Of a stretch of DNA of 35,522 bases, positions 9,020 through 35,374 are shown piece after piece. Below the pieces are notes generated by a model. The model searched no databases and was not told where the DNA came from. It was given only the letters and a program-made list of their open reading frames with translations. The stretch spans positions 1 through 35,522 of the forward strand of contig JACYMB010000261.1 of assembly GCA_015272205.1 (NCBI GenBank), in the 5' to 3' direction. The position numbers and the translations under genes are program-made. The stretch's first letter is position 1. Every line of letters begins with the position of its first letter. This DNA comes from Synechococcales cyanobacterium T60_A2020_003 (GTDB lineage Bacteria > Cyanobacteriota > Cyanobacteriia > RECH01).

Positions 9020-9022
9020 TCT

Positions 9023-9056
9023 TAGTTTTGAATTTTGAGGTCTTAGTTTTGAGTTG
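9023..9056. repeat. Degenerate TTTTGAG-type repeats downstream of recA
   Basis: The stretch reads TTAGTTTTGAATTTTGAGG followed by TTAGTTTTGAGTTGAT, i.e. three to four imperfect copies of the same heptamer that forms the perfect array at 6008-6049. It occupies the short convergent gap between recA and rsmH and has no hairpin typical of a terminator. Confidence 0.6.
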
Positions 9057-9095
9057 ATGATGCGGGGGACAGCAGCGAGTTTAGGGCATGATTAG

Positions 9096-10088
9096 TTAGT
9101 GATCGGTTGCGATATCGTCATCTGTAATTCGCTCCGCCCAACGTAACTTTGCAGAGCGCGATCGCCCATTGTGTTCCATCTCTTCGGGAGTAGGCACGAT
9201 GGGCTTTTTCGTGAGCACCCGCAGCAGGGGATTTTCCCGCAGGGTGTGTTTCACGATCCGGTCTTCTAGGCTATGAAAGCTGATAATCCCTACCCGTCCG
9301 CCGGGTTTTAACCAGTGGGGCGCACGGTCTAGAAAGCGTTCCAGCACCTCCAATTCCCGATTCACTACAATGCGGAGAGCCTGAAAGGTGCGCGTGGCGG
9401 GATGGATGCGCCCGTAGCGGTAGCTTTTAGGCACGCTGTAGAAAATGACCTCCGCCAGTTCCGTAGTGGTCTCGAAGGGTCGCCGCTCGACAATGCGACG
9501 GGCGATCTTGCGCGACAGTCGTTCTTCGCCGTACTGATAAATGACGTTGGCGAGATCCTGCTCGTCCCAGGTATTCACAATCTCGGCGGCAGTCATGTCC
9601 TGCTGAGGATTCATCCGCATATCGAGGGGAGCGCTGAGCCGGAAGCTAAAGCCCCGATCGGGAATGTCGAACTGAGCAGAACTGACGCCCAAATCCGCAA
9701 TGATGCCATCAAAGCGGCGATCGCCCGGATCGAAATCAGCAAAATTGCCCTGCCAGATCTGGACGCGATCGCCATAGGGAGCCAGCTTTGCCTGAGCCGC
9801 CGCGATCGCCTGGGGATCTTGATCAATCCCGGTCAGGGTAAGATGGGGGGCGGCCTCCAAAATTAGAGCGCTGTGGCCTCCACCCCCCAAGGTGGCATCC
9901 AGGTAATCGCCCCCCTCGCGGATCGCCAATCCCTCGACAATTTCTGTGGCTAGCACAGGCACATGGACAAAGTCCGGTGCGTCAGAGGGCTGAGGTGAGG
10001 TGGTCTTGCTCTCCTGAGAGGCAGCGATCGCTAAATCAGACGATGGGGTTGGCTCTGTCACTCGATCTCGCTTGTCGTTATTATTCAT
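9096..10088 (-). CDS. rsmH: 16S rRNA (cytosine(1402)-N(4))-methyltransferase
   Basis: The predicted protein has 330 residues. A variable 40-residue N-terminal extension precedes the conserved [13 protein letters not shown] and the SAM-binding motif [12 protein letters not shown] (about 62-73). The signature [14 protein letters not shown], the D-x-R-M-N segment [27 protein letters not shown] and the C-terminal [18 protein letters not shown] follow. It N4-methylates C1402 of 16S rRNA in the decoding centre. ATG at 10088 has GAGGG upstream; an in-frame TTG at 10100 would add four residues. It is not next to a dcw cell-division cluster here. It is divergent from the MltA gene, with an 18-base gap, so the two genes must share or overlap their promoters. 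Confidence 0.95.
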
Positions 10089-10106
10089 TCGCACCCTCAA
10101 CTTAGC

Positions 10107-11288
10107 ATGATCAGACCGTTTGCTTCCCTAGGGCTTAGCCTGGGTCTTGCGTTCAGTAGTCTGGTAATCCCACTGCCATCCGCACGGGCATCCGATCTAC
10201 CGCTGCGATCAGTATCTTTGAGTGACCTTTCGCCAGAGGAACAAGCCCGGTTTGGATTGGACGATCGCCTCTGGGGAACCGCGAGCGATCGCCAAGCATT
10301 ATTAACGGCAATCAACTATTCGCTGAATTACCTCACCACGGACAAAGCCAGCGAGGCCTACGCCAACTATCCAGTGCAGGGCATCACGCGCGATCGCGTT
10401 CGGCGGAGTCTGGAACGCTTCCGAGATCTCGTACAAACCAGTGCGTCGGCGGCAGACCTGCAAGCGGCGATCCTACGGGAATTTGAACTGTATGAATCCG
10501 TGGGCAATGATGGCTTAGGAACCGTACATTTCACAGGCTATTTTGAACCCATCTATGCCGCCAGTCGCGTACCAACCGCAGACTACCGCTATCCCCTCTA
10601 TCGTCGTCCACCCACGCTGGAACAATGGACAGACCCGCACCCCACCCGCATCCAACTCGAAGGGACAGACGGCTTGCAGGGTAGCCAAGGCCCCTTGCGA
10701 GGACTGGAACTGGTGTGGTTGCGCGATCGCCTCGAAGCTTTTCTTGTCCAAGTCCAAGGTTCAGCCCGTCTGCAACTGACCGACGGCACGATGATGAGCG
10801 TTTCCTATCACGGACGCACCAATTATGACTACACCAGCCTGGGGCGGGAGTTAGTCAACGCCGGAATTTATACCCTGGACGAATTAACCTTGCCCCTCGT
10901 CATTCAATATTTCAAAGACCATCCCGAGGCGTTGAGTACCTATATCCCTCGGAATAATCGGTTTGTATTTTTCCGCGAAACCGACGGCGGTGCGCCCAAC
11001 GGAACCCTGGAATTTCCAGTCACAGCGGAACGCACCGTCGCCACGGATAAAGCCATTATGCCGATGGGAGCCTTGGCGATTATTCATCTGGATCTCCCCA
11101 TCGTCGCCGCTGACGCCAGCCTGGAAACTCGTCCGGTGAGTCGGTTTGTGCTGAACCAAGACACGGGTGGGGCGATTCAAGGGCCGGGCCGGGTAGATCT
11201 CTTTATGGGTACAGGCTCCATCGCAGGCGATCGCGCCGGACTTATGAACAGCGACGGACAACTCTATTTTCTGTTGCTCAAGGAGTAA
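10107..11288 (+). CDS. mltA: MltA-domain murein lytic transglycosylase with 3D domain
   Basis: The predicted protein has 393 residues. A signal peptide is visible ([28 protein letters not shown], cleavage near 28); there is no lipobox cysteine, so it is probably a periplasmic, non-lipoprotein form. The MltA domain includes [15 protein letters not shown] (about 140-155), a central insert, and [15 protein letters not shown] near 215. The C-terminal 3D domain carries three aspartate-containing signatures in [20 protein letters not shown] (about 348-367), which holds the catalytic aspartate in this family. It would cleave peptidoglycan between MurNAc and GlcNAc, forming 1,6-anhydro products. It is divergent from rsmH. 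All domain markers are present, so it should be active. Confidence 0.92.
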
Positions 11289-19276: not shown

Positions 19277-20428
19277 TTACCCAGGCGTAGAGGCCGAGGC
19301 TTGAAGCTGAGGCTGAAGCAGTTGGTGAGGCTGGATCCTGAGACAGGAGTGAGGATGAGACGGGGCGATCGCTCCCCAGATGATGCCGCGACTATCGGGG
19401 GGGAGTTGTGCTAAGTGGGCGGGCGTTTGGCTGAGCCAAATCCAGGGACAGTTGGGGAAACGGATGTGGGAATCCTGAGCGTCTTCTTGCATGGTGACTC
19501 CAGCGAGGGTTTCTAGAACTGCCGTGTCTCCTCGCACGAGTCCTGTGGCGGCTGTCCAGAGCTGAACGCTTAAATTCTGTCTTAAGGCATAAAAGTATAG
19601 GGAGGTGGCGGCGGTTACCGCTTGCTCAAAGCAATCCTCGTCGTCCCAGGCGATCGCACTATCTAGCCCAATCACCACCGCTTGTCCTCCGGTGAGCACT
19701 TCCAGTTCCCGAACGCGTAATTCGCCATAGCGGGCGCTGGTGCGCCAGTGAACTAAGCGGGTGGGATCGCCCCAACGGTAAGGACGCAGGGCGCGGGTCA
19801 GTCCTTCGGTGGCGCCGTGGGATTGTTGTCGGCTTTGGATGAAGTGGTGGGTGTCGGTGCCGATTTCGTCGAGGAGGGGACACTGGGAAAGGTTGAGATC
19901 GCGAGGATAGACGATGGCCGTTGCCGGGCTCTGCACGGTACGGCGACACCAGAATAGACCTAGGGGGGCGGCGGTGCGAAGCTGGACGGTATGCCAGCGG
20001 TAAATGCCGCGCCGGGGGGCTGGCTGACTGTACACCCAGCGATAGGAGTCTTGAGCGGGTACAAATTCGACGGTGTGTCGCTGTGGAGGGGCAAGGACGA
20101 TGGGCAGTAGATCGTAAACTTCAAACAGGGTTTTGGGGCGAGGGGTCGGGTTCACGAGATGAAGTTCGACCTGAATGGTATTGCCAGCGCTGATGGGGGA
20201 GATGGGGCTGCGCTTGACCTGAAGATGTTTGAGAACGAGGGGGGGCAAAACGGAGGCGATCGCCAATAGGGCAATCATGGTGCCGCTGATTACGTAGAGC
20301 CAGCCGACCATGGTATTGGTCGCGGCGGCAAAGAAGAAAATGGCTAACCCTAATAACAACCAACCACTGTAGGCTGGCGCAACCCAGCGGTTTTCAAACC
20401 ATTGGTTGATGGCCTCAAAAATGTTCAT
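19277..20428 (-). CDS. DUF58 domain-containing membrane protein
   Basis: The predicted protein has 383 residues. Two membrane helices lie near the N-terminus (about 20-36 and 41-64), followed by a beta-rich extracytoplasmic-looking region. The DUF58 signature LRPYRWGDPTRLVHWRTSARYGELRVRE is near 215-242, and a von Willebrand A-like stretch, AVVIGLDSAIAWDDE, is near 252-266. DUF58 proteins often accompany MoxR ATPases and transglutaminase-like proteins; neither is visible here. ATG at 20428 was selected, and a GTG at 20437 is an equal candidate since neither has a good ribosome binding site. The function is unknown; a role in assembling surface or membrane complexes is the usual guess for the family. 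Confidence 0.85.
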   Translation of the reverse strand: MNIFEAINQWFENRWVAPAYSGWLLLGLAIFFFAAATNTMVGWLYVISGTMIALLAIASVLPPLVLKHLQVKRSPISPISAGNTIQVELHLVNPTPRPKTLFEVYDLLPIVLAPPQRHTVEFVPAQDSYRWVYSQPAPRRGIYRWHTVQLRTAAPLGLFWCRRTVQSPATAIVYPRDLNLSQCPLLDEIGTDTHHFIQSRQQSHGATEGLTRALRPYRWGDPTRLVHWRTSARYGELRVRELEVLTGGQAVVIGLDSAIAWDDEDCFEQAVTAATSLYFYALRQNLSVQLWTAATGLVRGDTAVLETLAGVTMQEDAQDSHIRFPNCPWIWLSQTPAHLAQLPPDSRGIIWGAIAPSHPHSCLRIQPHQLLQPQLQASASTPG

Positions 20429-20511
20429 TTTGGACACGGGATAAGGGGCGATCGCTTGATTATAAGGTTCCCAAAAGGGGGCGATCGATTATCAAGAAAG
20501 TTAGGAAAGCA

Positions 20512-20775
20512 CTACCCAGCGTTTTGCAGTATCCAATAAAATCCTGCACACAAGAGGGCAAGGATGGCGGGAACGGCTAGCATTAAAATACCAATGTAGG
20601 GTGTAGTAGCTATGCCGACGGCGATCGCAGCTCCAAAGTAAGGCAGCAAAATACAGAAAGTAACTATGAAAACTCTTAAAGAAGTCCACTGAACAAACTT
20701 AGCATAGTCTTTATACCCAAGTTGAGCATTCTGAGTTGGCTTATGGAAAGGATCATTTGGTATTTTCGAGGGCAT
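20512..20775 (-). CDS. Small two-helix membrane protein, unknown
   Basis: The predicted protein has 87 residues. The N-terminal soluble part MPSKIPNDPFHKPTQNAQLG is followed by two hydrophobic segments, about 34-56 (VFIVTFCILLPYFGAAIAVG) and 60-83 (IGILMLAVPAILALLCAGFY). The positive charges lie before the first helix. No family is recognised. A HIP1 octamer inside it (20621-20628) is the last one before the long HIP1-free stretch, so this gene belongs to the native side of the compositional boundary. It lies between the DUF58 gene and the acyltransferase, all on the minus strand. Confidence 0.6.
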   Translation of the reverse strand: MPSKIPNDPFHKPTQNAQLGYKDYAKFVQWTSLRVFIVTFCILLPYFGAAIAVGIATTPYIGILMLAVPAILALLCAGFYWILQNAG

Positions 20776-20794
20776 AACCGTATTTCTAGTAGCT

Positions 20795-21559
20795 CTACTT
20801 TAAGATATAGCTTGGAAAATCTGCTATTTCATTATGTGAAAGTAAATTTTTTGCTTCTCTAATAAATTGGAGGACATCCTCTCTAGGAAGGAGTTGTAAA
20901 AGGTCAGGTCTGTAGTTCCAATACCCTAACTGTAAAAGTACTTCAGCAATAGAATCAGAAAGTCTTTTCCGTATGGGCTTTGCAGGCACTCCTCCAACAA
21001 TAGTGTAGGGTTGAACATCTTTAGTCACAACTGCGTTAGCGCCAATAACTGCGCCAGAACCAATCCTTACCCCTTGAATTATTACTGCTCCGTCTCCTAT
21101 CCAAACATCATTTTCAATGATAGTTAAGCTATCTCTAGAATTCCTTTTGCTAAGACCAAATATCTTTTGAAATTCATCATCAGAGTATGCCTGAATAGCA
21201 CTTTTGAACTTGCTATACTCCTTTACCCTCAGAAATGGATGTGTGGAAATAGAGAATAGATTATGACTGATAGCTCCAATGCTACATCTCCTACCAATAG
21301 AGCAATAACGACCTATAAAAACATTGTCTCTTATGTAGCCACCATCATTAATGTATGAATATGCACCAATAAATGATGTTTTCCCACGTGGTATGATGGT
21401 TGGGGAATGTACGGAAACTCTCTCTTCAAAAATCAATCCTCGCAAGAATTGATAATTTTTGAAAGGTATAGAATCATTATCTTTTTCCGTAACGTGAGCA
21501 ACATGATTGACAATCGTTGAATCAATAAATGAATTTAGCTTTTGGTCAATGGTCTGCAT
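20795..21559 (-). CDS. Hexapeptide-repeat (left-handed beta-helix) acyltransferase
   Basis: The predicted protein has 254 residues. Hexapeptide repeats run through [42 protein letters not shown] (about 55-95) and resume at [55 protein letters not shown] (about 145-200). A loop with [14 protein letters not shown] between them contains the histidine expected for acyl transfer from acyl-CoA. This is the CatB/xenobiotic- or sugar-O-acetyltransferase type, common in polysaccharide loci. AGGAAAAA precedes the ATG. It is AT-rich and lacks HIP1, like its upstream neighbours. The likely job is acetylation of a sugar made by the adjacent glycosyltransferases; the exact substrate is unknown. Confidence 0.85.
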
Positions 21560-21694
21560 AAAGTTTTTCCTAGCAGGACTTCATATCTTTAAAAAGACAA
21601 CTAAGTTTCCAGACTCCATCTTGATGTCGGATTGAAGCTTCAAAAGTTACAGGAAATTCAAAAGAAACGTTAAAAACTACTATAAACTAAAACT

Positions 21695-22393
21695 TCAAGT
21701 TTTTCTATAAACAAATATGGAATGACCATGAGGTTCTTTGGACGGTTCCCATGGAATAGCATGTAAAAGAAATTCTTCTTCAGTGAATAAAGTTGACACT
21801 GGGATAAAGCAATCTTTACCTAAAGACTCGGCGATTAAATCCGTAACATCATCCCCAAATAAGCGAACATGGTCTTTCTGACCAAATCTTTTTCTGCGCT
21901 CTAACTCAGATAGTCCAGGATTTAAGTCTTCAATTGTTTCTTTTCCTCTATGTATAGGTATAGTAAAAATCATAGTCCCTCCAGGCTTTAAAATTCTATC
22001 AAAACCACGTAGAACACCTCGAACTGAGCAGAGAAGATGTTCTAATACATGGTTATGAATGATTAAATCCCATGAGGAAGAAGGCATAGAATATAGATCT
22101 TCACATATATCTATTCGTTTAACTTCTTTTTTGGAGTTCTTATAAATATCGGGAAATAAATCACATGGTTGATAATTTTCTTCGTGAGTTGATGTAAAGA
22201 GATTGATAAAACAAATCTCTGGGGCAAAATGTAATATCTTATCTTCTTTTCTTGGCAACCCAAGTTTTTGCAGAGTTAGATGTACAACTCTACCACGCTC
22301 CAGAGAATGGCAGGAAAGACATTTTGCTCTTGGACGTCCCGCAAACTCGCCAAAGGATTGACCGCCACAAATTGGACATTTTTCCGTACCCAT
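21695..22393 (-). CDS. SAM-dependent methyltransferase with N-terminal zinc-ribbon
   Basis: The predicted protein has 232 residues. Four cysteines at 6, 9, 25 and 28 (CPIC and CLSC) form a small zinc-ribbon. The class I methyltransferase part follows, with a degenerate motif I around KILHFAPE, WDLIIHNHVLEHL near 105-117, and RILKPGGTMIFTIPIHRGK near 128-146. The HFAPE type is frequent in polysaccharide and glycan clusters. The start ATG has AGGAG 8 bases upstream. It begins 18 bases after the stop of the giant glycosyltransferase gene and is almost certainly co-transcribed with it. The base composition is AT-rich and HIP1-free, like the end of that gene. The acceptor, probably a sugar or glycan, is inferred. 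Confidence 0.85.
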   Translation of the reverse strand: MGTEKCPICGGQSFGEFAGRPRAKCLSCHSLERGRVVHLTLQKLGLPRKEDKILHFAPEICFINLFTSTHEENYQPCDLFPDIYKNSKKEVKRIDICEDLYSMPSSSWDLIIHNHVLEHLLCSVRGVLRGFDRILKPGGTMIFTIPIHRGKETIEDLNPGLSELERRKRFGQKDHVRLFGDDVTDLIAESLGKDCFIPVSTLFTEEEFLLHAIPWEPSKEPHGHSIFVYRKT

Positions 22394-22411
22394 CAAGAAC
22401 TCCTGTAAGAT

Positions 22412-25400
22412 TTAGGGATTAACTCTAATACTTAGGACTTTCGTTGCTAAAAGATTCATGATTGTTGGTGTTGTTTCAGGGAAAGAAGCTATAGGATTAT
22501 TCGTCTGTTTGGTAAAGCCAAGATTATGAGCATATACTTCATAGAAAAGTTGTTCATACCGTTTCGCTTGAAGCATGAGATTTAGATTGTCCTCTGCATA
22601 TTGTCTACAGTTTTGAGACATATCATTTCCCGTTAGGACTAATCGAATTCCTTTTGCTAATCCTTTAAAGTCACCAACAGAGAATGTATAGCCTGTAATG
22701 CCATCCTGAACCATGTCGGGTATAGCCCCTGTCTGAAATCCGACCACTGGCGTTCCACAAGCGATTGCTTCAGCGGTCGTATTTGAAAAAGTTTCTTCTA
22801 AAGAAGGTACAACAACCACATCTGCGGCTGAATACGCTACTGCAAGTTTTTCATTATCGCTAATATAGCCTAGACTTTTGTGATCAAGTTTAATTTGATC
22901 ATTAGCTGGCGTCTTATCACCAACTAACATCACAAATGGATTCAATTCTGCTTGTTCTTGTTTAAGGATATCAAAAGCAGCTATAACTTCCCGATAGCCT
23001 TTCACCGCACTGGAAAAAGATGGAACATAACCAATAATTTTGCGATCGAGAGGAAGTCCTAACTTCTTACGTGCCTCAACTTTGTTATGCGGCTTAAACA
23101 CATCTATTTCTATTGAGTTCGGTATAATCTCAATTCGACACTGATTAAAGAAGGGTGCTTTCTTAACAATCTCTGCTGTGTGCTTGCTCAAAGTCACGAT
23201 TGTAATGTTTTCAAAATTGTAGTAGTGCCTCTTAGCAGCAAGAACCTTGCTAGGAAAGTTATCGAAATGATCGACAAGTTGAGGACAGTTCTCACAATTC
23301 TTTTGCCACTCAATACATCCATGAAAGAAGTGACATCCCCCTGTGATAGGATTCATATCTCTAATAGTCATCACAAGAGGCTTATTCATATTACTCAGAT
23401 ATGCAATATTTTCAGCAGATAAGAATCGCGCTGTCCAGTGGAGGTTAATTACATCAGCATCTTTAACTAAGGACTCAAGCTGCTCTGGAGTAATTAGGGG
23501 ATGATTAATCGTAAAAATTGTGAGTTCGGGTTTACTAATTGAAGGATCTTGCAAAATTCTCCAGGAATGCCCATTTTGAAGAGGATGAGGCATTACCTTT
23601 ACGCCTGGGAATGATTCATGATTTCTAACCGTGGTCAGAATCGTAGAGTTTATACTCGTGTTCTGTAAACCTTTATGGAGTCGGAAGGCGGCATACCCTG
23701 CACCTTGGATAGTACTTGATGAGAACAGGGTGGCGTTGAGCTTGTTTTGACAGACTTTAAAGATCTCCTTTGTCAGTAACGCTACTTGCTTTTTGCTTGA
23801 AAAGTGAGAAAGCCTTTCGGTTGCATACTCAATGTTATCGGAAAAACATTCTCCCTTCTCAAACATCCCTTTCAATGCTTGACCTATAGCTAGCCCATCT
23901 CCATGCTGTACTATTCTTGAATGTTTGCTCTCATATCCAACAACTTCGGGCAATCCTCCAGCGTTCGTAACAATGACTGGCAAACCAGAAGCGATAGCCT
24001 CCAAAACGGAAACTCCAAAAGTCTCTGATCTTCTAAGTGAGTCCTGAGTATAGGTTGAAGACTGTATGAACACATCAAATTTTTGGAAGTAATCTAATTC
24101 CTCCGAAAAATTAACAAATGGAATTAAGGAAACATTTGACTGCAATTTTAGATTTTCAATTTCAGAAACAGTTTCTTGATAAAAATCTTTCCCGTTAGCA
24201 TACACAATTGTTAGATGAACATCAGCATAACAATTGTTCTTAAAGAACTGAAGTCCCTGTAACAAATAAATATGACCTTTCCAATCTATTAACCTCCCTA
24301 CTGCAAGTATTTTAAGAGTTTCGCCTTTCTTAAAATAATTAGACTTTTTTCTGTTGGAGAAGAATCGCTCATGAACTGTATTATGGACAAGGCTAACTTT
24401 GTCATCAGAAACACCATGTTTTAATAACTCTTGCTTGAGATAGTGAGAAACAGCAGTGAAAGACGTATTTTTTCGCTTTGAGAAGTCCCCAAGTAAATAG
24501 TCTCTATACTCTTGATTCTCTTTCATTGAGAACACATCAATACCATGGGTCATGCTAATAGTAGGCACCGAAATATTCAATGGCTTCAATCGTTGAAATA
24601 TTTTCCACTCATTTAATGCAAAGTGAGCAACTACAACATCAGGTCTCATATTCTCGAAAATATACTTATACAGCTCATTTCTGATTTCAACATGAAAGTC
24701 TTGCCATGGTAAATATATGCCTTTGCTGTAGGGGCGCTCATCAGGAAGTAATCTATGCTCATATAGAACAAAATTATCAAAAACAGTCTCTTTTTCAAGG
24801 CGCTGAATCAGATCATAGATAAAAGCTTCTGATGGTCTAGAGAAGACAGATACAAAGTGTAGAAGCTTTCCTCGACCTGAGTTTTTAGTTCTTGAAAGGA
24901 TAGTATCAAACTGTTCTATCAGTGCTCCAAATAAACCATGTTTAGTATTAATCTGAATTGAAGACTTAGGTATATTTAGAATTTCTGCAAGTCTAATAAA
25001 GTCTAGAAATGCTTTGCCAGATTCTGTATGTGACAGTTTAAACTTAGGCAAACATCTAAAACAATGCTCAACGTACTTTGATAAACTTTTCAGAAAAAGA
25101 GTTTGATCTTTGTATTTTTGAGCTATCGCAACTAAGCCTGACGATCTTCCAGGATTAAATCGAAATAAATATATGTTCTCTGCTTCTAAATGTTCTAAAA
25201 ATTCAAATCGATCTTTGTAAGTTTTAATTACTTCAGAGATAAATAACTGTCTTCGTTCTGGAGAGTCTCCTGATGAAAGTCCCCCCTCTGAAAGAGTGAA
25301 AAGCTCTCTTGGAACCAAATTGAATTTTACACCTTGCTGAAACGCTTTTCGTATCCAAAGTGCATCGCTCACGATATGATAATCTTCAGAATATTTTCCA

Positions 25401-28400
25401 ACCAAGTCATAACATTCTCGACTGACTAAAAATGTATTATGGCAAACATTAAGATGGCCTAGGAAAATTCCTTCATTGATACCACTATTGATGAACGTAG
25501 TACCTTTATGAGAGTAGTAGGTGTATACAACTGAGGAATTATGCTGCTTCGCAACCTCAATACAAGAACTCACAAACTCTAATGAGTACCAATCATCTGA
25601 GTTGAGAATGCTGATGTAATCACCATGGGCTAGTTCTAGCCCCTTATTCATGGCATTATAAATACCTTTGTCAGGTTCGGAAATGAAGTAATCAATTTTG
25701 TCACTGTATTTTCGAATAATGTCTAAAGTCTCTTGTTCGCTTCCACCATCAATAACAATATATTCAACATTCTGGTAGGTTTGGTTAAGAACAGAATTGA
25801 TGCAACGCTCAAACGTAGTGGAGTTGTTATAAACAACAGTAATAATTGAAACAAGAGGAAATTCTTCAGAACTAACCTTGTAGATACCAGACAAACGTAA
25901 CCCGCCTTCTGCTTGTCGTTTGCCTGTTAGGTCAGGATAAGTGTCATATTTCCCACATATGAATACATCTACAGATTGCTCACTCAGTCTTTTTTTTTTA
26001 ACCTCTTCTAATACAAGACCAAGCTCTCGATAAAGATCTGCATCTTCAGGATACAAGTTGATTGCTTCACGATATAGGTTAACCGCTGCTGTTAAATGCC
26101 CCTGCTGTTTGAGATCTCTCCCCTTGTCTAGATATTGATTACTGGTAAGGTGATCAGATTTAGCCCTATTCATTTGTGAAGTACTAGCATGATCATTTCT
26201 AGCAGAACTTTGGCTACCATTCGAAGATGCTACTTCCACCTGTGAAGACAAATACCCTCTTGCTACTTGAAATTGTTCTTTGACTGCAACATCTCTATTC
26301 ACAGTTTTCTGCTGATCATGTTTTCTAAACAGTGCAAACGGATAATCTACAACCTCCAACTTTGCACCCATCTGGGCACACCGCATCCAAAGGTCATGAT
26401 CCATCGCATAGTGCAAATCCTCATTAACATTCCCCCCAACCCGCTCCCAAATGCTACGGCTAAAAAAGACCTCAGGTTGATAAAAGAAGTATCCATCCGC
26501 CCAACGCCCCGATACATCCGCCAAGTTATCCACCGTGAAATCCGCCTGTCGTGCTAGGGGCTTACGAATCAACTGAACTTGGCGATTCTCATGTACCAAA
26601 CATATTCCCGCAATCACATCACACGGACGCTGAAGATAGGTCAGCGCCGCCATGTGGAGGGCTCCTGGCATCAAGCGATCGTCGCTATTCACCCAGAGGA
26701 GGAGTTCTCCGGTTGCCCGTTTGAATCCCTTGTTGATAGCATCGGATTGTCCCCGATCGGGTTCGATGATGAGATCGGTTAAGTAAGGACGGTAATGCGA
26801 CAAAATCGCCTTCGTGCCATCCGTAGAGCCACCGTCAACCACGATATATTCCAGGTTGGGATACTGTTGACGTGTGACCGATAGAATCGTTTCCTCGATA
26901 TAAAGCCCCTGGTTGAGTGAGGGCGTCACCACCGTAATGCGAGGCCAAGGGCGATCGATCGGCTTCATCCGCTCCAACCCCGAAATCCACGGTGCCCATT
27001 CCTGGGACCACAGTGGGCTATCTGGACTAAAAAAGGGGAGAGGCATCGTCTCTATACCGCCGACTTGGTCAACCTCTCGAAAATAGTCAAGGGCAGACGT
27101 AACATCGTACGCTTCTAAACTTTGCATTCCTTGAATAAACTTTAAGGCTCCGATGCGATCGTTTAACCACTGCAACGTAGGCTCAAGCTCAATGACGTTT
27201 CTATAGCCTTCAATTGCTCCGTTCCAGTTGCCTAAACGGATGCACGCTTCAGCCAAATTGTAATGAGACCAGTAGAAGTCTGGATTAAGGTCAATTGCCC
27301 GCTTATAGGCATCCACAGCTTCACTCCAACGCCCTAACTCGGACAACGCTACTCCCAGGTTGTGATGCGACCATGAGAAATCTGAACTGAGAGCTATAGC
27401 CCGCTCATAGGCATCGATCGCATCTTCATAACGCTTTTGTTTGGACAGAGCATCTCCTAAGCCATGCCAACAGTAGGAACTTTCAGGGGCCTGTTCAGTT
27501 GCCTGGCGATACCGCTCCTCTGCAACTGCAAACTGCTCTTGTTTGGAGAATACCCGCGCCAACGAAAATAGAGCTTGTGCAGAATCTGGGGCAAGCAGGA
27601 GCGATCGCTCGTAACATGAACGTGCAAGTTCTAGATTGTGTTGTTTTTCAAATATTTCTCCTAGTGAGATATGTTGTTCGGGGGTCGCTCGCTCTGACTC
27701 TAACGTTAACGCCCGATAGTAAGCATGGGAGGCTTCTTCGGTTCTCTCTAGTTTTCCTAGCACCTGCGCCAAATTCCAATGGAAGCTAGCTCGACTTTCA
27801 ATGGCGATCGCCTTTTCATAACACTGGATCGCCTGTTCCCACTGCTCTTGCCGCGCGTAGAGCGTTCCCAAATTCCCCCAGTCGATTGCTAGGGATCCAT
27901 CCAGGTCAACCACTCGCTCGTAGGCTGCAGTGGCGGTGATCCAGTCCTCATTCGCCTGAGCTAGGTTGCCGCGTTCGCGATAGTGAATCACGGCTTGGTC
28001 AGAGCAATCCTCTGCCGCCTTTTTCAACACCTCCACCACCTGGTACAGCGCATCAGGATCGGTATCGTCCGTGGTTTGGAGTATATCCATGAGCTTGGTC
28101 AATGGGGAGAGATCCGCTTGCGCCAAGGTCGAAGAGGTCGAAGCAGAACGAACCAGGGTACTGCCTCGACCCCGACGCAAGAGCACTTGGTAATGCTCTA
28201 CGGCTTCTTGCCACCGCTCCATGTTCCCGAGCAGATCGGCCAACTTTTGGCGTGCGCCCAACTGCGAGGGATCGTACTGCACCGCAAGCTGGTAGCACTC
28301 TACTGCCCGGTCGGTCTGTCCCCACAGCAAAAAGCGATCGCCAAAGGAGACCATCTCTTCAGCCGCTAGCTTTTCTGGCTCAAGCTTGAGCGCTTGATAC

Positions 28401-29848
28401 CAGCACTCCATCGCTGATTCGGTTTTCCCCAAGGCTTGCCATGCCCGCGCCAGGTTGCGGTAGGCTCCGGCAAAGTCGGGGTTAAGGGCGATCGCCTGCT
28501 TGAAATGCTGAACGGCGGTTGTCCACTCTTGTTGCTGAGCGTAGACCGTTCCCAAGTTGGTGTAGATTTCCGCCGAGTCGGGCTGGTAGTCCAAGGCTTT
28601 TTCGTAGGCAGCGATCGCACTCTCAAACTGCCCCAATTGCAGGAGAGCATTGCCCAAGATCCGGTATGTGTCGCTGTTGGGTTCCCGCTCTAAAATGTAC
28701 TGGCAGTAGGGAATCATCTCTTGCCAGTTTCGGTCATCAAGACACTCGTGAACCCGCACCTTAGCAAGTTCCATTTTTTCCGCGTCAGACAACTCTGGCT
28801 CTGCTTCAACAGGTTGGGTATTAAAAGGGAGAGATGGGGCGGTTGATGAATCCGTCTCTGCTGCGGACTGTCTCTCGGCATCCGTGTCTTGGGATTGCTT
28901 GTACCGGAGTGCCTCTGCCAAGTGCTCATAGGCTGCAATCAACGTGGGATCATTCCGAACCGCCATCCGAAAACAGTCGATTGCCCGATCGATCTGCTTC
29001 CAGAGTAGGAACTCTTTACCCAAATCTAGATAGTCACTTGCGTGACCCGCATCGGGATCGAGCATCATGGCTTGATACCAACAGTCGGCGGATTGGTGTA
29101 ATTGATCCAGGCGCTGCAACACGCGAGCAAGGTTACGATAGGCTCCGGCAAAATCCGGCTTGAGGGCGATCGCCCGTTCGTAGCACTCTACGGCGGCTTG
29201 CCACTGGTGCTGCTGCGCTTCAAGGCTCCCAATGTTCGCCCATACCTCTGCCCAATTGGGTTCTAAGGCGAGGGTTTGCTGATAAGCTTCAAAGGCATCG
29301 TCTAGCTGCCCTTGCCGCTGCAATGCCGTTCCTAACAGCTTATACGCTAAGGCCGAGGGGGTTTGCTGGACGACCTGCAATCTCAGGGCGATCGCCTCTG
29401 CCCACATTTGTTGGTCAATCAGAGATTGCAAAGACTCAATCGTGGCATTAGTGGCGTTTTCTGCGGACTCATTATCGTTATCTACTTCCTGGGCGCTGAT
29501 GTCTACGTCAGAATCATCATTCTCATCGATCGATGGCGGAGCGGTTGGACAGGATTCTGCATCGGGTTCCGAAACTAAAGAGAGGCTATCGTTATCTCCT
29601 ACCTCTACAGGTTCTGTAGCATCGTCCTCAGCGTGGATAGACTCTGGATGGACGGCGATCGCCTGCTCATAGGCTGTTGCAGATTGGTCAAGGTTTCCTA
29701 ACTCTTGGAGGACTTCCGCAAGGCGTTGATAAGCGCTAACACACTGCGGATCAATCTGAATCGCGGCTTGGTAGGCTTCAACAGCAGACTCTAAATCGCC
29801 CTGCTGTCGGAGATGGTCTCCGGCCTGTACCTGCTCAATCGCTGTCAT
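22412..29848 (-). CDS. Giant TPR protein with four glycosyltransferase domains (GT2-GT2-GT4-GT4)
   Basis: The predicted protein has 2478 residues. A TPR array fills about 1-905, interrupted by acidic linkers near 75-140 and 320-360. A GT2 domain lies at about 968-1200 (TVVTPSLNQGLYIEETILSV, VVDGGSTDG, acid motif WVNSDDR). A serine/asparagine-rich linker and one TPR follow, near 1205-1290. A second GT2 is at about 1330-1560 (SIITVVYNNSTTFE, ILNSDDW). A first GT4 is at about 1660-2030 (VGRLIDWKGH, SETFGVSVLEAIASGLPVIV). A second GT4 is at about 2037-2440 (GYVPSFSSAVKGYREV, ETFSNTTAEAIACGTPVVGF). No signal peptide or membrane helix is seen, so it is probably cytoplasmic. It would add several different sugars to one acceptor. 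ATG at 29848 has AGGAG at 5 bases. Composition changes near 26.3 kb, between the two GT2 domains. Confidence 0.93.
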   Translation of the reverse strand: MTAIEQVQAGDHLRQQGDLESAVEAYQAAIQIDPQCVSAYQRLAEVLQELGNLDQSATAYEQAIAVHPESIHAEDDATEPVEVGDNDSLSLVSEPDAESCPTAPPSIDENDDSDVDISAQEVDNDNESAENATNATIESLQSLIDQQMWAEAIALRLQVVQQTPSALAYKLLGTALQRQGQLDDAFEAYQQTLALEPNWAEVWANIGSLEAQQHQWQAAVECYERAIALKPDFAGAYRNLARVLQRLDQLHQSADCWYQAMMLDPDAGHASDYLDLGKEFLLWKQIDRAIDCFRMAVRNDPTLIAAYEHLAEALRYKQSQDTDAERQSAAETDSSTAPSLPFNTQPVEAEPELSDAEKMELAKVRVHECLDDRNWQEMIPYCQYILEREPNSDTYRILGNALLQLGQFESAIAAYEKALDYQPDSAEIYTNLGTVYAQQQEWTTAVQHFKQAIALNPDFAGAYRNLARAWQALGKTESAMECWYQALKLEPEKLAAEEMVSFGDRFLLWGQTDRAVECYQLAVQYDPSQLGARQKLADLLGNMERWQEAVEHYQVLLRRGRGSTLVRSASTSSTLAQADLSPLTKLMDILQTTDDTDPDALYQVVEVLKKAAEDCSDQAVIHYRERGNLAQANEDWITATAAYERVVDLDGSLAIDWGNLGTLYARQEQWEQAIQCYEKAIAIESRASFHWNLAQVLGKLERTEEASHAYYRALTLESERATPEQHISLGEIFEKQHNLELARSCYERSLLLAPDSAQALFSLARVFSKQEQFAVAEERYRQATEQAPESSYCWHGLGDALSKQKRYEDAIDAYERAIALSSDFSWSHHNLGVALSELGRWSEAVDAYKRAIDLNPDFYWSHYNLAEACIRLGNWNGAIEGYRNVIELEPTLQWLNDRIGALKFIQGMQSLEAYDVTSALDYFREVDQVGGIETMPLPFFSPDSPLWSQEWAPWISGLERMKPIDRPWPRITVVTPSLNQGLYIEETILSVTRQQYPNLEYIVVDGGSTDGTKAILSHYRPYLTDLIIEPDRGQSDAINKGFKRATGELLLWVNSDDRLMPGALHMAALTYLQRPCDVIAGICLVHENRQVQLIRKPLARQADFTVDNLADVSGRWADGYFFYQPEVFFSRSIWERVGGNVNEDLHYAMDHDLWMRCAQMGAKLEVVDYPFALFRKHDQQKTVNRDVAVKEQFQVARGYLSSQVEVASSNGSQSSARNDHASTSQMNRAKSDHLTSNQYLDKGRDLKQQGHLTAAVNLYREAINLYPEDADLYRELGLVLEEVKKKRLSEQSVDVFICGKYDTYPDLTGKRQAEGGLRLSGIYKVSSEEFPLVSIITVVYNNSTTFERCINSVLNQTYQNVEYIVIDGGSEQETLDIIRKYSDKIDYFISEPDKGIYNAMNKGLELAHGDYISILNSDDWYSLEFVSSCIEVAKQHNSSVVYTYYSHKGTTFINSGINEGIFLGHLNVCHNTFLVSRECYDLVGKYSEDYHIVSDALWIRKAFQQGVKFNLVPRELFTLSEGGLSSGDSPERRQLFISEVIKTYKDRFEFLEHLEAENIYLFRFNPGRSSGLVAIAQKYKDQTLFLKSLSKYVEHCFRCLPKFKLSHTESGKAFLDFIRLAEILNIPKSSIQINTKHGLFGALIEQFDTILSRTKNSGRGKLLHFVSVFSRPSEAFIYDLIQRLEKETVFDNFVLYEHRLLPDERPYSKGIYLPWQDFHVEIRNELYKYIFENMRPDVVVAHFALNEWKIFQRLKPLNISVPTISMTHGIDVFSMKENQEYRDYLLGDFSKRKNTSFTAVSHYLKQELLKHGVSDDKVSLVHNTVHERFFSNRKKSNYFKKGETLKILAVGRLIDWKGHIYLLQGLQFFKNNCYADVHLTIVYANGKDFYQETVSEIENLKLQSNVSLIPFVNFSEELDYFQKFDVFIQSSTYTQDSLRRSETFGVSVLEAIASGLPVIVTNAGGLPEVVGYESKHSRIVQHGDGLAIGQALKGMFEKGECFSDNIEYATERLSHFSSKKQVALLTKEIFKVCQNKLNATLFSSSTIQGAGYAAFRLHKGLQNTSINSTILTTVRNHESFPGVKVMPHPLQNGHSWRILQDPSISKPELTIFTINHPLITPEQLESLVKDADVINLHWTARFLSAENIAYLSNMNKPLVMTIRDMNPITGGCHFFHGCIEWQKNCENCPQLVDHFDNFPSKVLAAKRHYYNFENITIVTLSKHTAEIVKKAPFFNQCRIEIIPNSIEIDVFKPHNKVEARKKLGLPLDRKIIGYVPSFSSAVKGYREVIAAFDILKQEQAELNPFVMLVGDKTPANDQIKLDHKSLGYISDNEKLAVAYSAADVVVVPSLEETFSNTTAEAIACGTPVVGFQTGAIPDMVQDGITGYTFSVGDFKGLAKGIRLVLTGNDMSQNCRQYAEDNLNLMLQAKRYEQLFYEVYAHNLGFTKQTNNPIASFPETTPTIMNLLATKVLSIRVNP

Positions 29849-30073
29849 GCTCACTCCTAACGGGTATGGAATAGATGTTCTGTGTACCTTGAATATTCTG
29901 CCCCGATTTTTACATCGGTACAGTTTGGTTTAACTTTCTTAGCGGTTATGGATTGGGATGGATGAGGGCGATCGCCCCCGCTCGAGAAACGATCGACCTA
30001 AAATCCATTATTTCCAGGGGTAGGCAGCACGTACCCACCATGCAGAAAACAATGGCATGAACAGATTCGACGA

Positions 30074-33000
30074 TCAATCCCACTGAAACTCCATCTGCAA
30101 ATAGTCTTCTAAGCGGCGGGTGTGGGGTTCAAAGAAGTTAGCAAGCACGTGCCGCACATCCGACTCCTCGTCGGAGTAAGACCCGACGTTATATTTGCCG
30201 CTAGTCGATGTCGATGCAGCCGGAATATTGAGAAAATCATATACCTGTTGCATCGTTTCATCGGTATTCTTGAAGAAATTTTCACTTTTGAGAATGAGCA
30301 TTTGCTCCCTCGGAAATACAGAGAACCACCGCTTCAGCATGTAAACATACAAACCGCCAAAGACAGAGTTTTGGAAACCAGATCCCTGCTGCGTCATCAA
30401 CTGTTCCTCCGTAGCATGGGCTAAAGCTTCCATTTCTTCTGCGATCGCAACATCGAGCGATCGCGATTCAACCCCGTGCCGCCTGCGATGGTAATACGCC
30501 GAGATCGCTCGATCTACAGGATTTCGCAGGAGGGCAATCAGCTTGATGTTCGGAAACATGGAATGAATGTTCGTCTCGGTGCCAACGCTGTAAAAGTAGT
30601 TGGGACTGGCCTCTCCGGTGTAGAATCCTGGCTCATCGGTTAAGGAGGGAAACTGGGATAGATACCAGTCTTTGCCGAGATGGAACTGCCGATCAAAGAA
30701 ATCGACTTCTTTGCGCTGGGGTAGCAAAATCTGGGAATGGGTATTCAGATACTGGTACAGGGACGTCGTGCCACACTTGGTTGCACCAATGATGATGAAA
30801 TCTGGGGGATGAGTTTTGCGATCCGGCCATTGCACCTGTGCGAATTCGGGATACGTAGCCGTGATGGAGGCATAACAACCTGCTCGATAACTGTCGATCG
30901 CTTCCTCAATCTTCTGTTTACGCGTCAGCACGTCACCTAAATTCGACCACAAGATGGGATGAAATGATCGGTCTGACGCCTGAATCCGCCGATACAAGCT
31001 AATTAGACCTTGAAGATGATGCTCTTTCGCATACATGTATTGAAGTTCTACGTATGCCCTGCGCTGCATCGGATCCTGCTCAATCGCTTGCTGATAGCAA
31101 ACCATACAGGCATCACCATAGCCACGTTGACGTAATTCTCTGCCCAGCTCAAATAGCTCTATCTCGGCGTCTGCCCTAAGTCCGATGGCCTGCTTATACG
31201 AAGCGATCGCCTCCTCGATTCGCTTTACCCTAGTCAGCGCATTCCCTAAGGTGAGGCGAAATTGGGGATGCTCCGGCTTCAGGTGCACCGCTTTTTGCAG
31301 CGGCGCGATCGCATGCTCTGGTTGCCCCAGTCGCAAATACATCATGCCCAGAGAGTGATACGCCCACGGAAAATCAGGATTGAGATCAGTCGCGTGTTGA
31401 AACGCTGTGGCCGCGTCTGCCCACTGTTGGAGTTGCCTGAAACTATGTCCCAACTGATGATAAGTTAAACAGTCTGGTTTAAGGGCGATCGCCCGCTGAT
31501 AGTGGTGAATCGCTTGATCATAGTGCTCCATTCCTGCAAACGCACTACCGAGGCCATGATGAGCAGGAGCATAGTCGGCATCCAGATCGAGAGCCGCTTG
31601 ATAGGTTGCAATTGCATCTTGATAGCGTTCTGCCTTTAAGAAGGCGGTGCCTAGGTTGTAGTGTGCTTCTTTCAGCCCAGGATATTGTTCGATCACCGCT
31701 TGATAGGCCGCGATCGCCTCTTCAAAAGACTGTTGGGCAAGGTAAGCATTCCCGATCAAGAACTGGCTTTCAGCATCATTCCACTGGGGGTTAAGGGCGA
31801 TCGCCTGTTGACGATGGCGAATCTCAGCCTCTACATCCCCGATTCTGCTGTATACCTCCGCCAGCCCCCAATGCGCTTCTGCAAAACTATCGTTCTCGGC
31901 TAACGCGTTTTGATAGGCGGCGATCGCGTCATCCCAATGGCGTTGACTTGCATAAAGCTGCCCAAAACAGGCATAAACTTCGGCCAAATTAGGGTCAGGA
32001 TGTACCGCTAGCGTGTGCCACGTCATTGCCTCATCAAATAGCCCTTGAGCCTGAAGCATATGGCCCAGGGTGCGACTCGTCTGAAACGTATCGGCTTGAG
32101 TTTGAAATGCTTTTTCGCAGGAGGCGATCGCCTCTTTGAGATAAGGAAGCATAGACGACTCTTGAACTCGATGATCCGGAGTGATTTTTAGCCTAGCATC
32201 TCCATTCTGTTGCCAGCTTTTCAAATGGGTAAGAATTGTGTCTACCGTAGATGTCCCAATCCACAAATCTTCGGTCAGCGGGTTGGGAGACATCACCTGA
32301 CGAATAGGATGACAGCTCAGCACCTCCGCATAGGCAATCAGGTGATGTAGACCCAGTTGGCGACTGATATCCCAGTAGTAGGGACGGATGTAGTTCGGCG
32401 ACGTTAGTTCAATGACGACCGTCCCCGGACGGCAAAATACTAGATTCGTCAAACTGCTGCCGTGAGCCGCGATGATGACCTTGGCATGGTGGAACAACGT
32501 CGCCTGTTCAACGACCGATCGCTCAGCCAAGCCAACAGAGACAAACCCTTCTACCTCTAAGTGTTTAACCAGTTCAGCTTCGTTCAGTACTTTGCGATAG
32601 GTGGCATCCGCTCGACTGATATAAATTCGTTCAGGGTACGCCTCTTGGGTCGAAATATGGGGAAGAATGCGATCGCGCAATACGTTTAATGTCCAAGGCT
32701 GTGGCCATCCCAAATAGCCAGAGAATGAAGGCACAATCAGCTCATCAGCTTGAATATGGGGATGGCGATCGCTCTCGATAATTCGATCATCCGGCACACC
32801 AAAGAGTTTCAGCGTTTCGCGTTGAAACGATCGTTGCTGACTGTTCACCACAATTCCATCCAGGGTTGACAGGTTGATCCCCGCTTGCCGCAACAGTTCC
32901 AAGCGAGGCAGGATATCCACCATCCAATGAAAATAGACATGTCCTGACAGTCCTGACACTACCGCAACTCGTCCCTGTAGGCGTTCAACGGGATGTTGGT

Positions 33001-34324
33001 ACCTGGCGATCGCCCGCTCTGGTTGCACAGTCTGCTGAGAACAATTCGGCAACTGTCCTGGATATTCGCGCGATCGGGATGAAATCCAGGTGTTCTCTTG
33101 GTTATAGACAGCAATTACGTTGCAGATCTGCCATGGGTTTTTATAAGGGGCAATCCAACACTGTCCATCGGGTAAAGTCAGCACATCGAGCGGAAATAAT
33201 GTATTGGCTAGTCCACTGCCCCCCAGTTTATAAACACCAGACGCAATCTGCTTTGGCATATAGGAGTGCCAAATGTCCTGGAGGCAAGCTCGACAGTTAA
33301 GTCCACCACAACCGTTCAGGGTCTCAAGTGTTTCTACAGTGCTTTCAACGAGAGATGGCGAAGAAGAAACGGCAGTCGGTTGGGACTCTATCTCCCTATC
33401 TCTAGAGGATGTAGGAGTGGCTGTCTCCTCTACAGGGGCGTTCCACACTGTTGCGTAGTGTTGAACTAAGACTGCAGCGGTCAATCGTCCTTGATCGCTT
33501 AAGCATTGCGACAACTGATCATACGTTTCTTCTAAATAGGGATTCAACTGAAGCGCGTATGTATACACTTGTTCGGCATACTGTCGCTGCGATCGCCCTC
33601 CATCTCGCGTAAATAGATCTCCCCAGTACCGATACGCGTTTGCTAGATGGATTACTGATTTTGAATCTAAAGCCAATAACGCCTTCAAAAACAGAATGCT
33701 CTCTTTCCTGGCAAGACCTAGAAAGTCCTCAGGGTCTGGTGTAGAGTCTAAAACTTGATCTTGATATATACGGCAGTAAGCATCAATAAGATTGCGTTGT
33801 GGGAGCACGGCTTGTCGAAAGTAAGCCATCGCCCGCTGTGGCTCTTCTAATGAGAGCCATTCCATTCCGAGCTCAGAATAAATGAGCGTATGCGGTTGAC
33901 GCTTAAGAACCTCACAAAAACAAGCGATGGCACGGTGGTGGTATCGTTTTCGCTGCAAGAGCTTGCCCATATTATAATAGGCCAGGGCAAAGCTAGGATT
34001 TAGCGCAAGCGACTGCTCGAAGGCTATGAGCGCCTCTTCAAAACGATTCATATGGGCAAGCGATCGCCCCATGTTGTTATAGATGCTAGCTTGAGTCGGA
34101 TCATGCTTGAGAGCCATGCGATAGACATCTATGGCTTCTGCATGTTGATTTAAAAACTGAAGGGCGATCGCTAGATTTACATAGACGTCACCATCATCGG
34201 CGTGAAGGGCGATCGCCTTCTGGTAAGCATCTACCGCTTTTTGCCACTGCTCTTGCGCCAGAAACACGTCACCCAACCGACGGTATAACTCGTGCAGAGG
34301 TTCTGGGGAAGACTGTTGCTGCAA
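30074..34324 (-). CDS. TPR-GT61-TPR-sulfotransferase fusion protein
   Basis: The predicted protein has 1416 residues. TPRs cover about 8-175. A GT61 (DUF563-type) glycosyltransferase lies at about 340-670, with GHVYFHWMVDILPRLELL, ERIYISRADATYRKV and the characteristic AHGSSLTNLVFCRPGTVVIEL. A second TPR array runs about 720-1130. The C-terminal sulfotransferase (about 1170-1416) has the 5'-phosphosulfate loop IIIGATKCGTTSLYQYL and the 3'-phosphate motif LLRNPVDRAISAYYHRR, so PAPS is the expected donor. The start is TTG at 34324, with AGGAG 8 bases upstream; I see no better ATG. The protein combines sugar transfer and sulfation. It lies 226 bases upstream of the giant glycosyltransferase gene, on the same strand. 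Its composition is native, with many HIP1 sites. Confidence 0.92.
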   Translation of the reverse strand: MQQQSSPEPLHELYRRLGDVFLAQEQWQKAVDAYQKAIALHADDGDVYVNLAIALQFLNQHAEAIDVYRMALKHDPTQASIYNNMGRSLAHMNRFEEALIAFEQSLALNPSFALAYYNMGKLLQRKRYHHRAIACFCEVLKRQPHTLIYSELGMEWLSLEEPQRAMAYFRQAVLPQRNLIDAYCRIYQDQVLDSTPDPEDFLGLARKESILFLKALLALDSKSVIHLANAYRYWGDLFTRDGGRSQRQYAEQVYTYALQLNPYLEETYDQLSQCLSDQGRLTAAVLVQHYATVWNAPVEETATPTSSRDREIESQPTAVSSSPSLVESTVETLETLNGCGGLNCRACLQDIWHSYMPKQIASGVYKLGGSGLANTLFPLDVLTLPDGQCWIAPYKNPWQICNVIAVYNQENTWISSRSREYPGQLPNCSQQTVQPERAIARYQHPVERLQGRVAVVSGLSGHVYFHWMVDILPRLELLRQAGINLSTLDGIVVNSQQRSFQRETLKLFGVPDDRIIESDRHPHIQADELIVPSFSGYLGWPQPWTLNVLRDRILPHISTQEAYPERIYISRADATYRKVLNEAELVKHLEVEGFVSVGLAERSVVEQATLFHHAKVIIAAHGSSLTNLVFCRPGTVVIELTSPNYIRPYYWDISRQLGLHHLIAYAEVLSCHPIRQVMSPNPLTEDLWIGTSTVDTILTHLKSWQQNGDARLKITPDHRVQESSMLPYLKEAIASCEKAFQTQADTFQTSRTLGHMLQAQGLFDEAMTWHTLAVHPDPNLAEVYACFGQLYASQRHWDDAIAAYQNALAENDSFAEAHWGLAEVYSRIGDVEAEIRHRQQAIALNPQWNDAESQFLIGNAYLAQQSFEEAIAAYQAVIEQYPGLKEAHYNLGTAFLKAERYQDAIATYQAALDLDADYAPAHHGLGSAFAGMEHYDQAIHHYQRAIALKPDCLTYHQLGHSFRQLQQWADAATAFQHATDLNPDFPWAYHSLGMMYLRLGQPEHAIAPLQKAVHLKPEHPQFRLTLGNALTRVKRIEEAIASYKQAIGLRADAEIELFELGRELRQRGYGDACMVCYQQAIEQDPMQRRAYVELQYMYAKEHHLQGLISLYRRIQASDRSFHPILWSNLGDVLTRKQKIEEAIDSYRAGCYASITATYPEFAQVQWPDRKTHPPDFIIIGATKCGTTSLYQYLNTHSQILLPQRKEVDFFDRQFHLGKDWYLSQFPSLTDEPGFYTGEASPNYFYSVGTETNIHSMFPNIKLIALLRNPVDRAISAYYHRRRHGVESRSLDVAIAEEMEALAHATEEQLMTQQGSGFQNSVFGGLYVYMLKRWFSVFPREQMLILKSENFFKNTDETMQQVYDFLNIPAASTSTSGKYNVGSYSDEESDVRHVLANFFEPHTRRLEDYLQMEFQWD

Positions 34325-34683: not shown

Positions 34684-35295
34684 CTAAAAAATCTCGAAGT
34701 TATCAGCTTGTGGATTAACGCCATCAATATTCACCAACTTCGTATCTTTCGTCTTCTCGTCATCGTTGTAGTACAGTACACCTTCGCTCTTGACAAAGAT
34801 CAGAGTTGCATCAATCTTGCTAGAGTTCTTCTTAACAACGGCAAGATCGTCGGGATCCAAGGCACCAGCTTTGAGGTTCTTGTCAACGATCTTCTTGTCC
34901 AGACGAATTAAATCTCCTTTGCCAAGATCTTTGATCGTGTCAAGCTTCTTCGCCCTGTTGCTCTCCACCAAATCCCCGTTGCTGAACTCAAAGATGTCTT
35001 TGCCTTTACCGCCAATCGCAACGTCTTTACCAGCACCACCAACAATGGTGTCGTCTTGCTTACCACCCCTTAGCTTATCGTCGCCACCCCGCCCTTCAAT
35101 AGCGTAGTCAAAGCTACCAAAAGCAGTCACTTTATCGTTTGCTTTTGAACCTTCAACCAGCACAGTTCCTTTGGGAGTCTTAGGCTTAGGTTTATCTGGT
35201 GTTGTGACCGTTACCTTTTTCGAGGTCGTAATATCCAGGCCATACAAGTCTAGTAGAACGGCCGCGTTAGCATCATTCGTTGTAAATTCTGACAT
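34684..35295 (-). CDS. Small RTX/hemolysin-type calcium-binding protein
   Basis: The predicted protein has 203 residues. After a short N-terminal part and a proline/lysine-rich linker (TPDKPKPKTPKG), four glycine/aspartate nonapeptide-like repeats lie at about 66-103: GRGGDDKLR, GGKQDDTIV, GGAGKDVAI, GGKGKDIFEF. A C-terminal domain ends in VNPQADNFEIF. RTX repeats bind calcium in a parallel beta-roll, usually outside the cell after type I secretion; the hydrophobic C-terminal end is compatible with such a signal. There is no N-terminal signal peptide. ATG at 35295 (MSEFTTNDANAAV) was chosen; an upstream start at 35346 has no supporting features. Its own terminator makes it a separate transcription unit. 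It is lysine- and aspartate-rich compared with its neighbours. Confidence 0.85.
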   Translation of the reverse strand: MSEFTTNDANAAVLLDLYGLDITTSKKVTVTTPDKPKPKTPKGTVLVEGSKANDKVTAFGSFDYAIEGRGGDDKLRGGKQDDTIVGGAGKDVAIGGKGKDIFEFSNGDLVESNRAKKLDTIKDLGKGDLIRLDKKIVDKNLKAGALDPDDLAVVKKNSSKIDATLIFVKSEGVLYYNDDEKTKDTKLVNIDGVNPQADNFEIF

Positions 35296-35374
35296 GGCAA
35301 TTTCTTTGCAATATGAAGTATGCGAAGTAGGTAAAGTAATCCACACACAATCCTATGTGCGGCCAAGAAAAAAA

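Follow-up and report, generated by a model that had tools for sequence, protein, structure and literature searches.

A cyanobacterial TPR-glycosyltransferase megaprotein that probably joins a native core to a laterally acquired catalytic tail

The stretch analysed here (the window, 35,522 nucleotides) is one whole contig, JACYMB010000261.1, of the 4.02-Mb, 403-contig draft genome of Synechococcales cyanobacterium T60_A2020_003 (GCA_015272205.1). It carries a gene for a mosaic megaprotein in which tetratricopeptide repeats (TPR) are joined to four glycosyltransferase (GT) domains, and the composition of the gene changes inside its open reading frame (ORF). The native TPR-GT2 core has probably received, by C-terminal displacement, a laterally acquired AT-rich 3' tail together with the genes for a methyltransferase and an acetyltransferase, a reading to which we assign a probability of about two in three. 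The features concerned are listed in Table 1.

Table 1 Features of the megaprotein gene, the AT-rich island and their neighbours in the window
Feature	Coordinates	Strand	Basis and remarks
Mosaic megaprotein, 2480 aa, TPR array-GT2-short TPR-GT2-GT4-GT4	22412..29854	-	Open throughout; Pfam
TPR array, residues 1-920, native composition	27095..29854	-	Pfam TPR families; GC3 ~0.56; z <=0.6
First GT2 domain, residues ~971-1203, NSDD motif	26246..26944	-	44% over 540 aa (residues 671-1203) to G124 ortholog
Compositional break, codons ~1160-1190	26285..26377	-	GC3 and codon-usage change points, synonymous-codon test
Short TPR opening the AT-rich tail, residues ~1245-1283	26006..26122	-	Pfam TPR_11
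Second GT2 domain core, residues 1336-1455, NSDD, other subfamily than first	25490..25849	-	Pfam PF00535
First GT4 domain, residues ~1718-2010, E-x7-E present	23825..24703	-	Pfam
Second GT4 domain, residues ~2051-2449, E-x7-E present	22508..23704	-	Pfam PF00534
AT-rich, HIP1-free island	20636..26355		Maximum-likelihood segmentation; tetranucleotides
SAM methyltransferase, AT-rich	21695..22396	-	GC3 0.24; Pfam PF08241
Hexapeptide acetyltransferase, AT-rich	20795..21559	-	GC3 0.28; Pfam PF00132; NCBIfam below cut-offs
DUF58-family protein, native flank of island	19277..20437	-	57% ortholog in family members without the operon
TPR-GT61-TPR-sulfotransferase protein, 1416 aa, native	30074..34324	-	Pfam PF04577 residues 464-638, PF00685 residues 1173-1370
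RTX calcium-binding repeat protein, 220 aa, likely ATG 35295, first operon gene in window	34684..35346	-	Pfam PF00353, 30 bits, cut-off 23
GC3, G+C content at third codon positions; z, tetranucleotide deviation from the genome background; SAM, S-adenosylmethionine.

The HIP1 octamer (highly iterated palindrome, GCGATCGC) occurs 79 times in the window, against 0.78 expected. The original prediction had noted its absence between 20,628 and 27,601, and this gap of 6,980 bp is indeed about four times as long as the runner-up (1,758 bp). The AT-richness reported for about 20.7-26.3 kb was likewise recovered by segmentation, which delimited an island with 37% GC against a median of 52.5% across the same genome. 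As background, 255.6 kb of the genome were sampled; they gave 167 genes for GC3 and, besides the megaprotein gene, 28 ORFs of 600 aa or more for change points. GC3 in the 167 genes is 0.568 ± 0.051 with a minimum of 0.371, and both small island genes (Table 1) and the megaprotein tail (~0.31) lie below that minimum. Tetranucleotide usage deviates by 8-9.5 standard deviations from the background in the island, whereas the TPR half and the gene upstream of it reach 0.6 at most. The claims that the C-terminal GT2-GT4-GT4 part, the methyltransferase and the acyltransferase share a foreign-looking composition and that the TPR-GT2 half is native are thus supported. Seven GT-like genes elsewhere in the genome have a GC3 of 0.51-0.65 and contain HIP1, so the AT-rich composition is not a glycosyltransferase property here, and the candidate explanation that GT genes are AT-rich by nature was rejected. 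The compositional observation is real and far beyond chance. HIP1 loss, atypical G+C content and atypical codon usage, the criteria for laterally acquired DNA in a HIP1-rich cyanobacterium, were all found. In Synechococcus elongatus, HIP1-poor genomic islands with unusual G+C content and codon usage bear the same mark of acquired DNA (PMC3025956); whole genes were scored there, whereas the boundary in the window lies inside a gene.

Within the megaprotein gene, a change point at codon 1167, with a GC3 of 0.56 before and 0.31 after it, gains 84 log-likelihood units; the best change-point gain in the 28 other large ORFs of the genome is 14.0. By the synonymous-codon test, codons 1141-1176 look native, codons 1178-1206 include 8 that end in G or C where 15.9 would be expected (P=0.002), and codons 1190-1227 include 7 where 21.6 would be expected (P<1e-4). 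Since the homology of the first GT2 domain to its ortholog in G124, a genome of another cyanobacterial family, reaches residue 1203, the break lies within or at the very end of this domain, whose last ~15-40 codons are already AT-rich. The switch had been placed near a serine/asparagine-rich linker at residues 1205-1240; it was found instead 15-40 codons before that linker. The absence of HIP1 extends 1.25 kb further upstream than the compositional break (26.36-27.60 kb), which is ordinary for native DNA because only ~2.8 copies are expected there at 2.25 per kb (P ~0.06). A separately translated second half starting at the internal Met 1228 (position 26173) is not favoured, since a Shine-Dalgarno sequence is missing there.

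The predicted single open frame for a four-transferase polypeptide was confirmed, with 2,480 aa (~275 kDa) free of interruption and four Pfam GT domains. Its likely start is the ATG at 29848, which lies behind AGGAG and two codons downstream of the listed GTG. All domains of the order first proposed, TPR-GT2-GT2-GT4-GT4, are present, but a short TPR also sits between the two GT2 domains. As the NSDD motif is found in both GT2 domains and E-x7-E in both GT4 domains, the catalytic motifs are intact and all four transferases could be active. The relatives of the second GT2 domain are single GT2 genes from cyanobacteria and Bacteroidota, and the second GT4 domain is 31-37% identical to single-domain cyanobacterial GT4s. 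No close relative of the first GT4 domain was found in 290 cyanobacterial genomes, the best cyanobacterial match being 28% identical. Searches for a donor yielded no plasmid record covering 80% of the tail and none among viral contigs. GTDB contigs gave only GT2 and GT4 matches of 25-42% identity, mostly from Bacteroidota and located in separate genes where inspected (L041). Because these searches gave no donor, a Bacteroidota origin is not claimed.

A parallel to the mosaic is found in genus g23, where, as judged by sequence comparison, tails have demonstrably been exchanged between sister species. The giant of G024 (2226 aa, carrying GT2-GT2-GT2) drops in GC3 from 0.55 to 0.28 at codon 1274 with a gain of 82, and its TPR core is common to G183, G299, G298 and G301, with a distant version in G297. 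Over residues 1-1243, the cores of G183 and G299 share 95% identity, and the sequences beyond are unrelated; those of G183 and G024 are 80% identical up to about residue 1243 and are followed by non-homologous tails. GC3 falls to 0.22-0.23 in the G183 and G299 tails, with gains of 126 and 137. In G183 the core GT4 is followed by a short TPR, GT2 and GT4, in G299 the tail consists of an MptE-like domain and GT4, and in G301 of GT2; the G298 giant stops at a contig break and is uninformative on its tail. Conversely, the G183 tail is 63% identical to that of G297 although the two cores are only 37% identical. Different tails on near-identical cores, together with one tail on two cores, show that core and tail were exchanged independently in this genus. 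On both sides, the flanks of the g23 islands are 62-99% conserved and the AT-rich genes between them are mostly unshared.

Two further features of the g23 loci were observed. Residues ~1243-1510 of the G183 giant (L193), compared with L141, L211 and L212, form the second half of the core GT4, which is apparently deleted in G024, G299 and G301, leaving the stub LLQRLPAVEFV just before the tail. Putative transposases, recognised by eye from zinc-ribbon and IS-like (insertion sequence-like) N-termini, lie inside the exchanged islands at L141:7257-7721, L193:4752-5771 and L211:442-1239.

A descriptive survey took in 69 ORFs (>=600 aa) of TPR-GT loci that had been chosen by homology, a gain above 20 being taken as a strong break. 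Strong breaks were detected in 6 of 9 TPR+GT ORFs (the nine include four g23 orthologs and so are not independent), 2 of 27 TPR-only, 1 of 20 GT-only and none of 13 other ORFs. Weaker or reversed breaks occur in G290, G053, G124 and G151. The G151 case (L175, 6931-10365) is a GT4-GT2 fusion in which the pattern runs the other way, from AT-rich (GC3 0.27) at the front to normal (0.49) at the back; its GT4 resembles the last GT4 of the window (34%) and its GT2 the first GT2 of the window (47%).

Among the large genes of its operon, which is conserved in cyanobacteria and encodes an RTX-repeat protein, a TPR-GT61 protein and TPR-glycosyltransferase giants, the megaprotein gene comes last. The same order is found in G124: RTX, TPR-GT61, further TPR genes and then a TPR-GT2-shortTPR-GT2-GT4 protein of 1816 aa in a single ORF. 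In the window, the RTX protein is 31% identical over 156 aa to that at the same place in G124, and the TPR-GT61 gene (GC3 0.51, tetranucleotide z ~0.2) encodes a protein 45% identical over 419 aa to its G124 counterpart. At E<=1e-40, the TPR-GT61 marker was detected in 47 of 194 cyanobacterial genomes and was not found in three genomes of the same family. An RTX gene lies directly upstream of TPR-GT61 on the same strand in 14 of 17 loci by a strict motif, which matches only 1 of 174 background genes; the window (by Pfam) is the fifteenth and L240 the sixteenth, bringing the total to about 16 of 17. The small RTX gene upstream of TPR-GT61 in nearly all of these loci (L174, L231-L245 and the window) suggests a conserved operon for the glycosylation of RTX proteins. 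In L240 (G009, 8571-11019) the TPR-GT61 gene is split across two frames, as a pseudogene or by a sequencing frameshift. Most other loci with this operon are compositionally uniform and the window is exceptional among them, so the candidate generalisation that all TPR-GT giants of the operon are mosaic was rejected. The mostly uniform composition of these distant relatives fits a local replacement in the window.

The original prediction explained the mosaic by an acquired glycan cassette fused in frame to a resident TPR-GT2 gene. This reading is supported in large part, since an AT-rich, HIP1-free module does lie in frame behind the native half, but a new fusion is only one option. Because the distant G124 ortholog already has the TPR-GT2-shortTPR-GT2-GT4 order, it is no less likely that an older tail was replaced. 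Nor is the case singular, comparable breaks occurring in several lineages. In its strict form, a one-off fusion would have placed a complete foreign TPR-GT2-GT4-GT4 gene behind the resident TPR-GT2 gene, with loss of the stop codon and conversion of the intergenic stretch into the Ser/Asn linker. The linker is of low complexity, and the AT-rich half opens with a Met (residue 1228) and a short TPR, like the separate AT-rich Met-TPR genes of the g23 islands (L193:2524-4197, L141:5735-7198). Against this, AT-rich sequence sets in 40-65 codons ahead of Met 1228 and takes in the end of the first GT2 homology, Met 1228 has no Shine-Dalgarno sequence, and a GT2-shortTPR-GT2-GT4 order already exists in one G124 ORF, so that we consider a one-off fusion rather unlikely. 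It is much less probable that no foreign DNA is involved and that local mutation or a relaxation of codon selection made an old 3' half AT-rich, a common state of surface-glycan loci. Related loci in the other genomes examined do often contain AT-rich glycan genes. In this genome, however, the remaining GT genes and large ORFs are not AT-rich, the change is confined to ~30 codons, HIP1 is absent, the tetranucleotide deviation is 8-9.5 standard deviations, and the AT-rich part is replaced between g23 sister species. An assembly error, in which an AT-rich foreign contig was joined to the TPR-GT2 gene, is unlikely and ranks lowest among these explanations. The fragmented draft would allow it, but HIP1-rich native sequence flanks the island on both sides in one contig, so that two joins, one of them in frame, would be needed, and the same kind of break occurs in the single-contig genomes G024 and G183.

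Several observations nevertheless weigh against displacement of the tail or against its link to an RTX glycoprotein. Neither direct repeats nor a tRNA was found at the island edges, and no transport genes were identified in the island. The uniformity of most same-operon loci indicates that tail exchange is occasional and not the rule. The megaprotein gene is missing from all three same-family genomes in which it was sought (G001-G003), and displacement in the window therefore rests on composition and analogy. The link between RTX protein and glycosyltransferases is one of gene neighbourhood, and in g23 it holds for the paralogous locus but not for the example locus L141, which lacks an RTX neighbour.

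Displacement still accounts best for the window, where we infer that the tail was swapped as in g23. The acquired part would comprise the end of the first GT2 domain, the short TPR, GT2, GT4 and GT4, plus the methyltransferase and acetyltransferase genes. Most likely, conserved flanks would have recombined, one of the crossovers falling within the GT2 region of the core ORF. In the encoded enzyme, acceptor or partner proteins would be held by the TPR array, and the four transferases would act one after another on a single glycan carried by this scaffold, with methylation, acetylation and sulfation as possible finishing steps. O-GlcNAc transferase contains TPRs; because of this analogy and because SwmA and oscillin are RTX glycoproteins, the co-encoded RTX protein is proposed as the acceptor, which would be glycosylated in the cytoplasm before export. 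This is the weakest step and falls somewhat short of even odds, a free polysaccharide being the main alternative acceptor. More tentative still is a broader proposal, by which an RTX-linked, TPR-scaffolded glycosylation operon is widespread in cyanobacteria and its last giant carries the catalytic C-terminal tail as an exchangeable cassette. A single recombination event could then rewrite the glycan of a secreted RTX protein and leave the substrate-binding TPR core in place.

At the far end of the window, positions 251-907 contain a 218-aa ORF that by eye resembles the N-terminal half of a pyridoxal phosphate-dependent cystathionine-type lyase and is perhaps a truncated gene.

C-terminal displacement is established for Rhs genes (Jackson et al. 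2009, PMC2935791). As in Rhs, a conserved core is decoupled from non-homologous C-terminal tips, seen in g23 both as one core with different tips (G183/G299) and as one tip on different cores (G183/G297), and proposed by analogy for the window. The tips here are however GT2 and GT4 domains by Pfam and not toxins, and the core consists of TPR and GT domains; Pfam revealed no Rhs/YD core, and the region behind the megaprotein gene showed no dissociated tip array. The megaprotein is not an Rhs member and only has a similar mode of evolution. The replacement of AT-rich glycan genes between conserved flanks, as in g23, also recalls the switching of O-antigen, capsule and exopolysaccharide islands, but here one boundary lies inside an ORF, giving a new chimeric enzyme. 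In the window, GT, methyltransferase and acyltransferase genes are AT-rich as in such switchable islands, and the DUF58 flank is conserved in the family, in genomes without the whole operon; no Wzx/Wzy or ATP-binding cassette (ABC) exporter genes were seen in the island. Multi-GT polypeptides are known from Klebsiella O-polysaccharides (PMC11231755); polymerases of this kind include WbbB, WbdA, WbbM and the O7 ORF6 protein of Klebsiella. The megaprotein shares with WbbB/WbdA-like polymerases at least two GT modules per polypeptide (four here) and a methyltransferase as part of the system, but they combine a coiled-coil ruler with a terminating methyltransferase or kinase and are linked to an ABC transporter. 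In the megaprotein, TPR arrays assigned by Pfam apparently form the scaffold in place of a coiled coil, and the methyltransferase is encoded separately. Among the window genes that were annotated, which are not all of them, none was identified as an ABC transporter. SwmA and oscillin are glycosylated cyanobacterial RTX surface proteins (review PMC3034196). The window likewise encodes an RTX protein, directly upstream of TPR-glycosyltransferase genes, but this protein is small and its glycosylation and surface location are putative.

Rhs displacement, multi-GT polypeptides and the use of HIP1 loss to recognise acquired DNA were known before; what appears to be new here is core/tip displacement in a glycan-building enzyme. 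Our searches of the open-licence literature turned up neither the RTX-TPR-GT61 operon nor tail displacement in a TPR glycosyltransferase, which is weak evidence of novelty. Cyanobacterial surface glycans influence phage attack, gliding and grazing, and to our knowledge few of the enzymes that attach glycans to RTX surface proteins have been described. The RTX-TPR-GT61-TPR-GT operon supplies named genes, and the g23 sister species, with near-identical cores and different tails, offer a natural experiment. If displacement is correct, it would represent Rhs-like core/tip evolution in a biosynthetic enzyme, and a bacterium may alter its surface-glycan chemistry by exchanging a single enzyme's catalytic tail on an unchanged scaffold.

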